Part shown: piece by piece, positions 474-5,493 of the stretch
Layout: each line of letters begins with the position of its first letter
How positions within the stretch are numbered: the stretch's first letter is position 1
Assembly: GCA_029974875.1 (NCBI GenBank)
Contig: JARKQP010000302.1
Coordinates: forward strand, 1 to 5,493
DNA length: 5,493 bases
Reading direction: 5' to 3'
From: Mobilitalea sp.
Lineage (GTDB): Bacteria > Bacillota_A > Clostridia > Lachnospirales > Lachnospiraceae
Notes under the pieces: model-generated
What the model was told of the DNA's origin: nothing
The model's database searches: none
Seen by the model: only the letters and a program-made list of their open reading frames with translations
Position numbers and translations under genes: made by a program

Positions 474-1067
474 ATGAAAAAGATAATTCTTTGCGCCATA
501 GCGCTGTTCTTAATATCAGGAGCAGCCGGTTGTACAAAAGAAGAATTGCGGGTAGGTGAAATAGCGGCGAATACAATGGTTGCCAGGGCAGATGGAGAGC
601 TTCAGGTAGCAACAATAGAGTCCTTTGATAAGGATTATTACGATCTGGAGGGACTAAAAAGCTACATCCAAACGCAGGTGGATGCCTATAATACAAAGGC
701 CGGAGAAGAAAAGATTAAGGTTGATGATGTTGATAAAAAGGAAAACAATGCGGTAATGATACTTACCTATTCCGGCATGGACCAATATTCCAGCTTTAAT
801 GAAGAGTTCGGCGCCTATTTTTCCGGTGGTGTGGAAAATATCTCCTTAAAGCTCCCTTCCACGCTGGTTAATGCCAAGGACGGTTCCCTGGCAAGCACGG
901 ATGAAGTCCTGAAGGACGAAAAAAACAGGATCCTTGTATTGAATGAACCATACCACATCATTGTTGACGGGAAAATTAAATATTACTCTGAAAAGGCAAC
1001 CCTTGTAGATGACAATGAGATAGACGGGGCTGCCGAAGATATGACAATCGTGGTATTTAAAAAGTAA
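474..1067 (+). CDS. Predicted lipoprotein of unknown function
   Basis: The frame encodes 197 residues from the ATG at 474. It starts MKKIILCAIALFLISGAAGC: two lysines, a hydrophobic stretch of about 12 residues, then AAGC, which fits a lipobox with Cys20 as the lipidated residue (the -3 position is Ala rather than the commoner Leu). The protein should therefore be exported by Sec, cut by signal peptidase II and anchored to the outer face of the membrane. The mature part is soluble, rich in Asp, Glu and Lys, with no further membrane segment and only the lipobox cysteine. Its pattern of alternating hydrophobic stretches (for example NAVMILTYSG, YHIIVDGKIKYYSEKATLV, MTIVVFKK) suggests a mixed alpha/beta fold. 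I do not recognise the family. It sits 235 bases after recO and 121 bases before glyS, and may share a transcript with glyS. Confidence 0.8.
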   Translation: MKKIILCAIALFLISGAAGCTKEELRVGEIAANTMVARADGELQVATIESFDKDYYDLEGLKSYIQTQVDAYNTKAGEEKIKVDDVDKKENNAVMILTYSGMDQYSSFNEEFGAYFSGGVENISLKLPSTLVNAKDGSLASTDEVLKDEKNRILVLNEPYHIIVDGKIKYYSEKATLVDDNEIDGAAEDMTIVVFKK

Positions 1068-1188: not shown

Positions 1189-2577
1189 ATGGAAAAGACA
1201 ATGGAGAAAATAGTAGCGTTAGCAAAAGCAAGAGGCTTTGTATATCCTGGCTCCGAGATCTATGGGGGTCTGGCAAATACCTGGGACTACGGCAACCTGG
1301 GTGTTGAATTAAAGAATAACGTGAAAAAAGCATGGTGGTTAAAATTTATCCAGGAAAACCCCTATAATGTTGGTGTTGACTGCGCGATCCTGATGAACCC
1401 CCAGACCTGGGTTGCTTCCGGTCATCTGGGCGGTTTTTCTGATCCCCTGATGGACTGTAAGGAATGCCATGAGCGTTTCCGTGCGGACAAGATAATCGAG
1501 GATTATAATAAGGAACAAAATATTGCCACGGAAGGCGCTGTGGATGCCTGGTCCAATGATGAGATGAAGAACTATATCGAGGAACATAACATCCCATGCC
1601 CCACCTGTGGAAAACATAACTTTACCGACATCCGCCAGTTTAACCTGATGTTCAAGACCTTCCAGGGCGTAACTGAGGATGCGAAGAATGTTGTATACTT
1701 AAGGCCTGAGACAGCGCAGGGTATCTTCGTAAACTTTAAGAATGTGCAAAGAACCTCCCGTAAGAAGATCCCCTTTGGTATCGGCCAGATTGGAAAGTCC
1801 TTCCGTAACGAGATTACACCGGGTAACTTTACCTTCCGTACCAGGGAATTTGAGCAGATGGAGCTAGAATTCTTCTGTGAACCGGATACTGACCTGGAGT
1901 GGTTCAACTATTGGAGACAGTTCTGTATTGATTGGCTAAAGAGCCTTGGTATTACGGATGGAGAGATGAGGGTCCGTGACCATGATCCGGAAGAGCTGTC
2001 CTTCTACAGTAAAGCGACTACCGATATCGAGTTCTTATTCCCCTTTGGCTGGGGTGAGCTTTGGGGTATCGCAGACCGTACGGATTATGACCTGACACAG
2101 CACCAGAATGTATCTAAGGAGGATATGAGCTATTTCGACGATGAGAAGAAGGAGCGTTATATCCCATATGTAGTTGAACCGTCCTTAGGCGCAGACCGTG
2201 TTGTACTGGCCTTCCTGTGTGCGGCTTATGATGAGGAAGAAATTGCGGAGGGCGATGTCCGTACCGTACTGCATTTCCACCCGGCGCTTGCTCCCGTAAA
2301 AATCGGCGTGCTTCCGTTATCCAAGAAGCTGTCCGAGCCTGCCGAAAAGGTATTCATGGAATTATGCAAGACCTATAACTGTGAATTCGACGACAGGGGA
2401 AATATTGGTAAACGCTACCGCAGACAGGATGAAATTGGTACTCCGTTCTGCATTACCTACGACTTTGAATCCGAGACGGATGGAGCGGTTACGGTCCGTG
2501 ACAGGGACACGATGGAGCAGGAAAGAATCAAAATAGAGGATTTAAAGGCTTATTTTGAGAATAAATTTAAATTTTAA
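1189..2577 (+). CDS. glyS: Glycine--tRNA ligase, single-chain homodimeric type
   Basis: The enzyme (462 residues from the ATG at 1189) attaches glycine to tRNA-Gly using ATP in the cytoplasm. It is the class II alpha2 type found in Archaea, eukaryotes and many Gram-positives, not the GlyQ/GlyS tetramer. Features in order: the conserved start with [13 protein letters not shown] (15-27); [10 protein letters not shown] (70-79) in the motif 1 region; a four-cysteine insertion, CKEC (90-93) and CPTC (137-140), that looks like a zinc site; RPETAQG (172-178); motif 2, [21 protein letters not shown] (205-225); motif 3, EPSLGADR (330-337); and a C-terminal anticodon-binding domain from about 365, including [17 protein letters not shown] (411-427). 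The length is normal. A GTG at 1168 is in frame but lies inside a leader hairpin; 1189 is preferred because family members usually begin MEKTMEKIV, as recalled, and GGTG at 1180-1183 gives a weak ribosome site. No terminator is visible after the TAA. DYGNLG (33-38) has Asn where Pro is usual. Confidence 0.96.
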
Positions 2578-2608: not shown

Positions 2609-2617
2609 TGTTATAAT
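2609..2617 (+). promoter_or_regulatory. Extended -10 promoter between glyS and ppdK
   Basis: TATAAT at 2612-2617 is a perfect -10 box, preceded by TG at 2609-2610 with one base between, the extended -10 arrangement that can work without a good -35. At the -35 distance only T-rich sequence is seen (around 2588-2594). Transcription would begin near 2624, directly at the structured region before ppdK. This makes it the likely promoter for the non-coding RNA, and perhaps for ppdK by read-through. Confidence 0.7.
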
Positions 2618-2623
2618 CGTACA

Positions 2624-2646
2624 CGGCAGACGGATACCGCCTGCCG
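2624..2646 (+). other. GC-rich hairpin at the predicted transcript start
   Basis: CGGCAG (2624-2629) pairs with CTGCCG (2641-2646); after one A.C mismatch, CGG (2631-2633) pairs with CCG (2637-2639) around a 3-base loop. It begins exactly where transcription from the -10 box at 2612-2617 should start. It is not followed by a T run, so it is not a glyS terminator. It may cap the 5' end of the RNA, or be trimmed off a mature RNA starting near 2640. Confidence 0.5.
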
Positions 2647-2687
2647 GTGCATAGAAATACTAAGCATGAGTTATAATTTGTGATATA

Positions 2688-2779
2688 GGATTGTCCATTG
2701 GGTGATAAAAGTATTAGGCTAACATAACGAAAACTTTCGCTATGCTGGCTTAGTACTTTTGGCGCTCAATTGACGGGCC
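2688..2779 (+). repeat. Long imperfect inverted repeat (45-bp rod-like hairpin)
   Basis: Arms 2688-2732 and 2735-2779 pair along their whole length: of 45 positions, 32 are Watson-Crick, 8 are G-U on the + strand and 5 are mismatches (2690, 2696, 2705, 2722 and 2727 with their partners). The inner 26 pairs run from AAAAGTA (2707-2713) and TACTTTT (2754-2760) to CGAAA (2728-2732) and TTTCG (2735-2739). It forms the terminal stem of the proposed non-coding RNA. Confidence 0.8.
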
Positions 2780-2873
2780 GGGTGGGGAAAGCTTCTGCAA
2801 TAGGTGCGGGATGTGCCCCAAACTTGCTCCATGATAGTTCTGCACCAAATTGTAAACATATAAAATTATTTTT

Positions 2874-2880
2874 AGGAGGG
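2874..2880 (+). promoter_or_regulatory. Strong ribosome binding site of ppdK
   Basis: AGGAGGG lies ten bases before the ATG at 2891 and nearly matches the full complement of the 16S rRNA tail. It fixes the ppdK start and implies high expression. A TATAAA at 2859-2864 just upstream could be a -10 box of a short-leader promoter, but no acceptable -35 is seen. Confidence 0.85.
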
Positions 2881-2890
2881 CACTTACAAA

Positions 2891-5493
2891 ATGGCAAAAT
2901 GGGTATATTTGTTCAAAGAAGGTAAGGCAGACATGAAAAACCTTCTCGGCGGTAAAGGCGCTAACTTAGCAGAAATGACTAACTTAGGTCTTCCAATTCC
3001 CCAAGGTTTTACAGTAACAACAGAAGCTTGTACTGATTACTACAATAGCGGTAAGAAGATCACCGATGAAATCAAAGCTCAGATTTTTGAGGCTTTAGGA
3101 AAGCTGGAGGAAGAGCAGGGTAAAAAATTCGGTGATACAGAGAATCCTTTATTAGTATCAGTTCGTTCCGGTGCAAGGGCATCCATGCCTGGTATGATGG
3201 ACACAATCCTTAACTTAGGCTTAACAGATGCAGCTGTGGAAGGCTTCGTAAAGAAGACAGGCAATCCTAGATTCGCATATGATTCCTACAGAAGATTCAT
3301 CCAGATGTTCTCTGACGTTGTTATGGAAATTTCAAAGTCCAAGTTTGAAAGAGTTTTGGATGAAATTAAAGAGAAGAAGGGTGTTCATTATGACACTGAA
3401 CTTACTGCTGAAGATTTAAAAGAAGTCATCGCTGGCTTCAAGGCATTATACAAGGCTGAAAAAGGCACAGATTTCCCCCAGAATCCTGCAGACCAGTTAA
3501 TTGAAGCTGTAACTGCCGTATTCCGTTCCTGGGACAACCCCCGTGCTATTTACTACAGAAGAATGAACGATATCCCTGGCGACTGGGGTACTGCTGTTAA
3601 CGTTCAGGCAATGGTATTCGGTAACATGGGTGATACCTCCGGTACTGGCGTTGCATTTACACGTAATCCTTCCACTGGTGAAGCTAAGATCTACGGTGAG
3701 TACCTGATCAATGCCCAGGGTGAGGATGTTGTTGCCGGTATCAGAACTCCTAATCCAATCAGCAGACTGGAAGAGGATATGCCAGAGGCATATGCTGAGT
3801 TCATGAGAATTGCTACTCTTCTTGAGAATCACTACAGAGATATGCAGGACATGGAATTCACAATTGAAGATACAAAGCTTTACTTCTTACAGACACGTAA
3901 CGGTAAGAGGACAGCTCCTGCCGCTCTTCAGATCGCTTGCGATTTAGTAGACGAAGGCAAGATTACAAAGGAAGATGCTATCAAGAGAATTGAAGCTAAG
4001 TCCTTGGATCAGTTATTACATCCTACATTTGATATAGCAGCATTAAAGGCAGCTAAGCCTGTAGGCAGCGCTCTTCCTGCATCACCTGGTGCAGCAGCCG
4101 GTAAGGTATACTTCACAGCAGAAGATGCAAAGAATCATCACGAAGCAGGCGAGAGAGTAATCCTTGTTCGTCTTGAGACTTCTCCTGAAGATATTGAAGG
4201 TATGCATGCAGCTGAAGGTATCCTGACCGTACGCGGTGGTATGACATCACATGCAGCCGTAGTTGCACGTGGTATGGGTACTGCTTGTGTATCCGGTTGC
4301 GGCGAGATCGTAATCGACGAAGCAGATAAGGTATTTACTCTTGGCGGCAGCACAGTAAAAGAAGGAGATTATATCTCCTTAGACGGCTCCACTGGTAACA
4401 TCTACGTTGGAGATATCCCTACGGTAGAGGCTTCCATCAGTGGTAACTTTGATAGAATTATGACATGGGCTGATGAGATCAGAACCTTAAAGGTAAGAAC
4501 CAATGCGGATACACCTGATGATGCAGCTAACGCTGTTAAGTTTGGTGCAGAAGGTATCGGCCTTTGCCGTACAGAGCATATGTTCTTTGAAGGTGACAGA
4601 ATCCATAAGATCAGAAAGATGATCCTTTCCAAGACAGTTGAAGCCAGGGAAGCAGCTCTTAACGAGTTAATTCCTTTCCAGAAGGGTGACTTCAAGGGTC
4701 TTTATGAGGTAATGGAAGGAAGACCGGTTACCATCCGTTTCCTGGATCCCCCGTTACATGAATTCGTTCCTACGGATGCAGATGATATTGCAGCTTTAGC
4801 AAAGGATATGGATCTTTCTGTAGAAGAGGTTAACGCAGTTTGTGATTCCTTACATGAGTTCAACCCTATGATGGGCCACAGAGGTTGCCGTCTTGCCGTA
4901 ACATATCCTGAGATCGCAAGAATGCAGACCAGAGCCGTTATGGAAGCAGCAATTGAAGTTAAGAAAGAAAAAGGCTTTGATATCGTTCCTGAAATCATGA
5001 TTCCGCTTGTTGGCGAGAAGAGGGAGCTTAAATTTGTAAAAGAAATCGTTGTTGAGACAGCAGAAGCGGTTAAGAAAGAAATGAATTCCGATATTGAATA
5101 CCATGTTGGTACTATGATTGAAATTCCCCGTGCAGCTTTACTTGCTGACGAAATCGCTGAGGAAGCTGAATTCTTCTCCTTCGGTACAAATGACTTAACA
5201 CAGATGACCTTCGGTTTCTCCCGTGATGACGCTGGAAAGTTCCTGGATGCATATTACAAGAATAAGATCTACGAGTCAGATCCATTTGCAAGACTTGACC
5301 AGGAAGGTGTTGGCCAGTTAGTGAAGATGGCATCCGAAAAAGGCCGCGCTACAAGACCAAACATTAAGCTTGGTATCTGCGGTGAGCACGGTGGAGATCC
5401 TTCAACCGTTGAATTCTGCCATAAGATAGGCTTGAACTATGTATCCTGTTCACCTTTCCGTGTGCCGATTGCAAGACTTGCAGCAGCTCAGGC
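2891..5493 (+). CDS. ppdK: Pyruvate, phosphate dikinase (lacks only the last few codons)
   Basis: PPDK reversibly converts pyruvate, ATP and phosphate into PEP, AMP and pyrophosphate. In anaerobic clostridia it often runs toward pyruvate and ATP, or supplies PEP for gluconeogenesis. The window shows 867 complete codons with no stop; the family is about 874 residues, so only the extreme C-terminus is cut off by the window edge. N-terminal nucleotide-binding domain, about 1-340: GGKGANLAEM with Lys22, SVRSGARASMPGMMDTILNLG with Arg92, and QTRNGKRTAPA with Gln334 and Arg336. Swivelling phosphohistidine domain, about 380-505: GGMTSHAAVVARGMG with catalytic His454 and Thr452, the equivalent of the regulatory threonine of plant PPDK. 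PEP/pyruvate TIM barrel, about 515 onward: GLCRTEHMFF (Arg560), TIRFLDPPLHEF (Arg616), Glu744, Asn767 and GICGEHGGDP with Cys830. From Gln334 onward the numbering trails the C. symbiosum enzyme by one. All catalytic residues I looked for are present. It lies downstream of the structured RNA and may share its promoter. Confidence 0.97.
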   Translation, partial: MAKWVYLFKEGKADMKNLLGGKGANLAEMTNLGLPIPQGFTVTTEACTDYYNSGKKITDEIKAQIFEALGKLEEEQGKKFGDTENPLLVSVRSGARASMPGMMDTILNLGLTDAAVEGFVKKTGNPRFAYDSYRRFIQMFSDVVMEISKSKFERVLDEIKEKKGVHYDTELTAEDLKEVIAGFKALYKAEKGTDFPQNPADQLIEAVTAVFRSWDNPRAIYYRRMNDIPGDWGTAVNVQAMVFGNMGDTSGTGVAFTRNPSTGEAKIYGEYLINAQGEDVVAGIRTPNPISRLEEDMPEAYAEFMRIATLLENHYRDMQDMEFTIEDTKLYFLQTRNGKRTAPAALQIACDLVDEGKITKEDAIKRIEAKSLDQLLHPTFDIAALKAAKPVGSALPASPGAAAGKVYFTAEDAKNHHEAGERVILVRLETSPEDIEGMHAAEGILTVRGGMTSHAAVVARGMGTACVSGCGEIVIDEADKVFTLGGSTVKEGDYISLDGSTGNIYVGDIPTVEASISGNFDRIMTWADEIRTLKVRTNADTPDDAANAVKFGAEGIGLCRTEHMFFEGDRIHKIRKMILSKTVEAREAALNELIPFQKGDFKGLYEVMEGRPVTIRFLDPPLHEFVPTDADDIAALAKDMDLSVEEVNAVCDSLHEFNPMMGHRGCRLAVTYPEIARMQTRAVMEAAIEVKKEKGFDIVPEIMIPLVGEKRELKFVKEIVVETAEAVKKEMNSDIEYHVGTMIEIPRAALLADEIAEEAEFFSFGTNDLTQMTFGFSRDDAGKFLDAYYKNKIYESDPFARLDQEGVGQLVKMASEKGRATRPNIKLGICGEHGGDPSTVEFCHKIGLNYVSCSPFRVPIARLAAAQ

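Follow-up and report, generated by a model that had tools for sequence, protein, structure and literature searches.

A strongly folding sequence between glyS and ppdK of a Lachnospiraceae bacterium as a candidate cis-acting ppdK leader

Results and Discussion

We analyzed the gap between glyS and ppdK in a 5,493-nucleotide stretch of Mobilitalea sp. DNA (the window), and we read the feature that it holds, with middling confidence, as a ~268-nt 5′ untranslated leader of ppdK that belongs to one Lachnospiraceae lineage, would be transcribed with ppdK from 2609–2617 and would act in cis. About 230 nt of this leader, GC-rich and predicted to fold strongly, are missing from the closest relatives reached and are hereafter called the element. 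The leader reading is favored because promoter and gene order are conserved, with a short leader, in 10/10 readable members of the closest genus reached, and because the extra sequence aligns between promoter and ribosome-binding site with no terminator-like site. It is further favored because the fold is strong (z −6.1), three hairpins are stable in 33/33 transcript models, the plus strand folds better than the minus strand and GC lies above that of the flanks. An earlier note on this DNA had proposed 6S RNA here and kept an undescribed ppdK leader as its fallback; the comparison favors the fallback, by the promoter position kept in relatives, the extra sequence ahead of the ribosome-binding site and the lack of a terminator-like site.

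Table 1. Positions of genes, signals and predicted RNA structures in the window
Feature	Position	Strand	Basis or remarks
recO, 3′ end	before the lipoprotein-like gene		Call based on a Pfam scan
Lipoprotein-like gene	474–1067		Between recO and glyS; ORF list
glyS, glycyl-tRNA synthetase	1189–2577	+	ORF; Pfam HGTP_anticodon, tRNA-synt_2b; upstream neighbor
Extended −10 TGTTATAAT, putative ppdK promoter	2609–2617	+	Sole exact TGNTATAAT in the window
Putative transcription start region	2622–2625	+	5–8 bases downstream of the −10
GC-rich 5′ hairpin	2624–2646	+	−13.1 kcal/mol, z −4.0; indicator pairs ≥0.98 in 33/33 transcript models
Helix A (outer stem of the earlier note), 5′ side	2646–2651, with 2841–2846	+	Predicted, 0.67–0.92 in transcripts ending at 2848–2850
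Helix B, alternative closing helix, 5′ side	2672–2695, with 2833–2854	+	Pairs of the minimum-energy fold
Long rod hairpin	2693–2774; 2697–2731 pairs with 2736–2770	+	−38.0 kcal/mol, z −8.0; arms 2693–2732/2735–2774
Second hairpin and third junction arm	2775–2829	+	~−23 kcal/mol; indicator pairs 0.98–0.99 in 33/33 transcript models
Shared 3′ strand	2833–2854	+	2841–2846 used by helix A, 2833–2854 by helix B
AGGAGG, ppdK ribosome-binding site	2874–2879	+	Sequence
ppdK, pyruvate phosphate dikinase	2891–5493, open at window end	+	ORF; Pfam PPDK_N, PEP-utilizers, PEP-utilizers_C

Genomic context and the promoter in front of ppdK

By the boundaries of the open reading frames the gap runs from 2578 to 2890, which gives the same 313 bases as reported before (Table 1). 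A scan of the whole window returned no tRNA or tmRNA, and in a check for hidden small proteins five mechanical open reading frames of 32–51 amino acids were found to overlap the gap. When genera were ranked by the first 400 amino acids of ppdK, the closest one reached was that of genome G351, seven members of which showed 92–93% identity over 400/400 residues. Eleven of the 15 genomes of this genus gave a ppdK match and one of these, G411, is cut before the start, leaving 10 readable members.

The lipoprotein-like gene upstream of glyS has no Pfam family and 83 other relatives at E≤1e-3. It evolves fast, with 25–41% identity where glyS has 84–91% (13 loci with a match), a difference which makes it probable that the genomes reached do not include the genus of the window. 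The nearest other lipoprotein is 88% identical and comes from a Clostridiales bacterium, and the next relative with a genus name, from Herbinix sp., is 72% identical; the proteins P0003–P0006 have 72–73% identity.

The extended −10 at 2609–2617, earlier called excellent, is an exact match, but it is accompanied by a poor −35 and is missed by a −35/−10 consensus scan; the poor −35 counts against the leader reading. The motif TGNTATAAT is seen once in the window against 0.26 occurrences expected by chance, and as 47 of 200 shuffles contain it at least once, the promoter is suggestive at most when judged by its sequence. Conservation provides what we consider the stronger argument for this putative promoter, since the same TGNTATAAT is located at the matching place before ppdK in 10/10 readable members of the G351 genus, where glyS is also the upstream gene. 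On the 3′ side of the element there is just a short AT-rich stretch, with hardly any space for a second ppdK promoter, and a scan of 2560–2900 detected no terminator-like site.

In these ten members the ppdK leaders are 52–55 nt long, contain a small hairpin at most and lack the element. When the window was aligned with two of these loci (L102 and L133; alignment A1), its extra sequence appeared as an insertion downstream of the promoter and ahead of the ribosome-binding site of ppdK, which is where a part of the leader would be. We infer that the element would be co-transcribed with ppdK and exert its effect in cis on the joint mRNA. A lineage-specific insertion need not have a function, which is a point against the leader reading.

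Predicted fold of the leader

That the gap folds strongly, as had been supposed, was borne out by folding 2624–2860, which gave −91.7 kcal/mol (z −6.1) with 0/200 shuffles as good; the gap is thus predicted to carry a strongly folding sequence. Pair probabilities were obtained for 33 start/end combinations modeled as transcripts (Table 1), and the 5′ hairpin, the rod and the second hairpin proved robust in every one, with indicator pairs at ≥0.98. The second hairpin on its own (2775–2830, z −1.6) is no better than shuffles. Two details of the earlier description required correction: the rod given there as 92 bases is actually ~82 bases long (2693–2774), and what was taken to be a large asymmetric bubble is mostly occupied by the hairpin at 2775–2829. 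In the transcript models that reach it, 2875–2880, at the ribosome-binding site, is unpaired with a probability of 0.50–0.80.

The closing stems of the earlier description survive as complementary sequence (2646–2651/2841–2846 and 2665–2670/2827–2833), but in a transcript 2618–2890 their pairs have a predicted probability of 0.0001–0.0008. The models have helix A prevailing only for RNA ends near 2846–2852, with longer transcripts adopting helix B: once the transcript end is at or beyond 2856 the pair probability of helix A is 0–0.20, and that of the outer part of helix B (2672–2682 with 2843–2854) is 0.74–0.94. The two helices are at most a few kcal/mol apart, which is inside the error of such models, and the leader is possibly bistable by exchange between them.

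In the mechanism that we propose, transcription would begin at ~2622–2625 from the extended −10 at 2609–2617 and continue into ppdK. The GC-rich hairpin would start within ~2 nt of the putative 5′ end, with the rod and a three-way junction behind it, and most of the time the ribosome-binding site would stay accessible. The likeliest effect of such an arrangement is that the 5′ hairpin and the downstream structure hinder 5′-end-dependent decay and lengthen the lifetime of the ppdK mRNA, and the competing helices A and B could add co-transcriptional or conditional control. mRNA stabilization through a protected 5′ end is suggested by analogy, as B. subtilis mRNAs are reported to be stabilized by hairpins that lie at their 5′ end or close to it (PMC3997798). 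The leader would resemble the 5′-terminal stem-loop mRNA stabilizers of Firmicutes, such as the B. subtilis aprE leader, in that a hairpin lies at the 5′ end or close to it and the ribosome-binding site is downstream. Leaving the size of the aprE hairpin aside, it differs from them in being much longer and in containing a rod and a three-way junction.

The fullest version of the leader reading, an undescribed ppdK leader RNA gained in one Lachnospiraceae lineage within about a genus-level time span, with a three-way junction and helices A and B that are remodeled as polymerase passes 2850–2856 and so set ppdK output, is in our opinion unlikely as a whole. If functional, the element would be a regulatory or stabilizing RNA recently gained before a gene of central metabolism, and the relatives with short leaders offer a natural comparison for what the RNA adds. 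The phrase "upstream of ppdK" was not found in the literature searched, and no title matched in a search on ppdK and riboswitches names a ppdK leader; the terms ppdK, dikinase and Lachno- have 0 occurrences in the main text of the structured-RNA discovery papers PMC11109978, PMC8632094, PMC6429828 and PMC2864571.

Leader RNA or inserted element

The chief rival to the leader reading is that a hairpin-rich, non-autonomous MITE-like element inserted recently into the ppdK leader and persists there as a passenger with no role of its own, which we regard as somewhat unlikely. MITE-like palindromic insertions are lineage-specific in presence, form hairpins and have short inverted repeats near their ends. 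The element resembles them in all of these respects, being absent from 10/10 readable relatives in the G351 genus and having near its ends a 10-nt inverted repeat that is 90% complementary (2671–2680/2846–2855). Its composition is also unlike that of its surroundings: the GC fraction of 2624–2855 is 0.457, compared with 0.283 and 0.257 for the two flanks, 0.314 and 0.340 for the remaining intergenic regions of the window and 0.245–0.308 for the leaders of 8 relatives. This contrast fits a structured RNA and likewise an imported sequence. Unlike such insertions, the element shows no clear target duplication (a flanking TA can be read as one but is not distinctive), has no further copy where we searched and folds preferentially on one strand.

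The strand bias speaks against a MITE-like insertion, as 2671–2855 folds at −71.8 kcal/mol (z −5.8) on the plus strand versus −43.6 (z −2.4) on the minus strand. The separate hairpins tell otherwise: the rod folds well on the minus strand (−25.7 kcal/mol, z −5.6), and for the 5′ hairpin the minus strand gives the better fold of the two (−17.6, z −6.1, vs −13.1, z −4.0, for the plus strand). Both thus behave like a DNA palindrome, which argues against an RNA-only reading. A decaying DNA palindrome is expected to show equal numbers of G-U and A-C positions. The plus strand of the rod has 6 G-U versus 2 A-C, a difference on the side of RNA, although these eight positions are too few to decide.

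Further copies or homologues of the element were sought by DNA searches of 397 genomes of the family, 15 of the G351 genus and 392 of the order (the family and order draws overlap), and none was found, the short matching pieces being taken as chance. At E≤1e-3 matches were obtained in 13 of the 397 family genomes, 12 of them at query 291–341 (window 2850–2900), where they correspond to the ribosome-binding site with the start of ppdK or another gene, or lie at an unrelated place. The only family match inside the element, in G327 (40 bases, 83%, E 3.8e-4, query 116–155, window 2675–2714), was judged to be chance because of its AT-rich surroundings. In the order, 38/392 genomes matched at E≤1e-4, and all 40 places listed are in the flanks (query 1–58 or 315–391). 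The G351 genus gave matches of 16–32 bases in 8/15 genomes at E≤0.5 (best E 0.024), and a further DNA search gave matches of ~16–33 bases in 8/8 genomes at E≤1 (best E 0.049).

A model made from the window alone (R1), which recovers the window at 214.6 bits as its sole positive control, had no match in the 397 family genomes (the inclusion of G327 among them being unconfirmed) or in the 15 genomes of the G351 genus. Plasmid and phage records gave no match at 1e-5, with four plasmid matches of 20–41 bases (E 0.6–7) at E≤10, and an exact 34-base pattern had 0 matches in viral contigs. The lack of any copy in the 15 G351-genus and 397 family genomes, by DNA or model, and in plasmid and phage records argues against a MITE-like insertion, as a statement about genomes other than the window's own and its genus. 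It equally leaves the leader reading with no covariation support, the main gap in its case.

Riboswitch-like leader and small RNA

It is improbable that the leader is riboswitch-like, sensing a metabolite or signal with helices A and B as its two states. The two helices are mutually exclusive, their predicted balance flips as the transcript passes 2850–2856, and the leader belongs to a gene of central metabolism, all of which would suit such a switch. Against this, we found no Rfam match and no terminator-like site, no expression platform is evident because the ribosome-binding site is mostly unpaired in the models, and competing helices often arise by chance in long sequences.

We give similarly little credence to a stable, trans-acting small RNA of ~200 nt processed from the ppdK leader. 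An end near 2850 would yield a compact fold closed by helix A, but no terminator-like site and, in the genomes searched, no conservation was found that would favor it.

Comparison with 6S RNA

6S RNA, a ~200-nt mimic of the open promoter that binds RNA polymerase, failed every sequence and structure test that we ran, and we attach practically no probability to it. Its fold is described as a rod in which closing and apical stems flank an open central bubble (PMC8876501). The element is similar in length, near 200 nt, and an RNA with its end near 2850, in the conformation with helix A, would have a rod-with-closing-stem layout; to this extent the likeness in size and layout seen earlier is real. 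An open central bubble is absent, because the hairpin at 2775–2829 fills the region and helix B closes its 5′ side in longer transcripts. Since the outer stem yields to helix B beyond 2856, the part of the structure that carried the 6S idea is not robust.

The Rfam model RF00013 gave no match in the window at gathering score and none in 2570–2900 at E≤10 with permissive filters; retron ncRNA and T-box, also considered, likewise had no Rfam match in that search of the gap. In the G351 genus, by contrast, Rfam 6S scores above cut-off in 13/15 genomes, at places other than the glyS-ppdK gap (two places in 7 genomes, one in 6, and none over cut-off in 2). We built a second model (R2) from an alignment (A3) of 11 of the 12 6S loci fetched from this genus, omitting L162 as identical to L161, and scored it at all positions of the window. 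Its best score was 9.1 bits and the five matches overlapping the element reached 0.8–5.3 bits, which is noise level; two 6S loci of the G351 genus gave 185 and 189.5 bits, values that serve for scale only, since L151 went into R2 and L162 is identical to one of its members. Two blocks conserved in the 6S RNAs of this genus, TTTTGAWCCTACA (≤2 mismatches) and CCCACCTAGC (≤1 mismatch), had 0 matches in the window. The 6S identity proposed for the element is thus contradicted by Rfam, by the genus model, by the missing blocks and by the filled bubble. Resemblance in size and layout is by itself a weak basis for identifying 6S RNA, and in the G351 genus the genuine RNA is easily found elsewhere.

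ppdK leaders in other relatives

We compared the putative leader with those of loci having at least 83% identity at the ppdK N-terminus. Of 44 unique loci, 38 with leaders of up to 200 nt were used; L001, L006, L007, L008 and L110 were left out for having no TGNTANAAT within 400 nt, and L126 for a leader above 200 nt. The 38 leaders have a median length of 86.5 nt, the longest being 141 nt, and a lowest z of −3.3, compared with ~268 nt and z −5.8 for the leader of the window. The putative leader of L126 is 307 nt (z −4.4, and −3.5 in the looser table described below) and so exceeds that of the window in length; none of the 40 leaders (window, 38 and L126) has a z below that of the window, whose leader ranks second by length.

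As a group the 38 leaders, with a mean z of −1.25, are no more structured than control stretches taken upstream of the promoter, with one of −1.15 (Wilcoxon p 0.38), and z ≤ −3 was observed for 1 leader vs 8 controls; the control stretches may include terminators of the preceding gene. A structured ppdK leader throughout the family is unsupported by these data, and the leader reading consequently has no family-wide precedent, which counts against it.

A looser table, admitting weaker promoters and ppdK identity down to 61%, contains one leader that exceeds that of the window (L042, 182 nt, z −7.9) and two that are comparable to it (L010, 246 nt, z −5.9; L091, 209 nt, z −5.3). In these three loci ppdK is 74–81% alike, and two of the three have weak promoter matches. 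The ~182 nt before the ppdK start of L042 fold at −80.1 kcal/mol into a long rod and a second hairpin. As a distant cousin of the element L042 was rejected, having no match to R1; DNA searches with its upstream stretch gave nothing in G351, G413 or G414, and within the genome of L042 just the stretch itself and its reverse strand.

The ppdK leaders of L112 and L116, both ~129 nt and with no Rfam match at gathering score, have the blocks GGCGGATCGAGAGGGTTCGTC and GTTGTGGAGATGCCCGTCTTCACAAAC in common and differ in other parts. L004 and L129 have two-hairpin ppdK leaders of similar layout in which the stems are changed, possibly in a compensatory manner.
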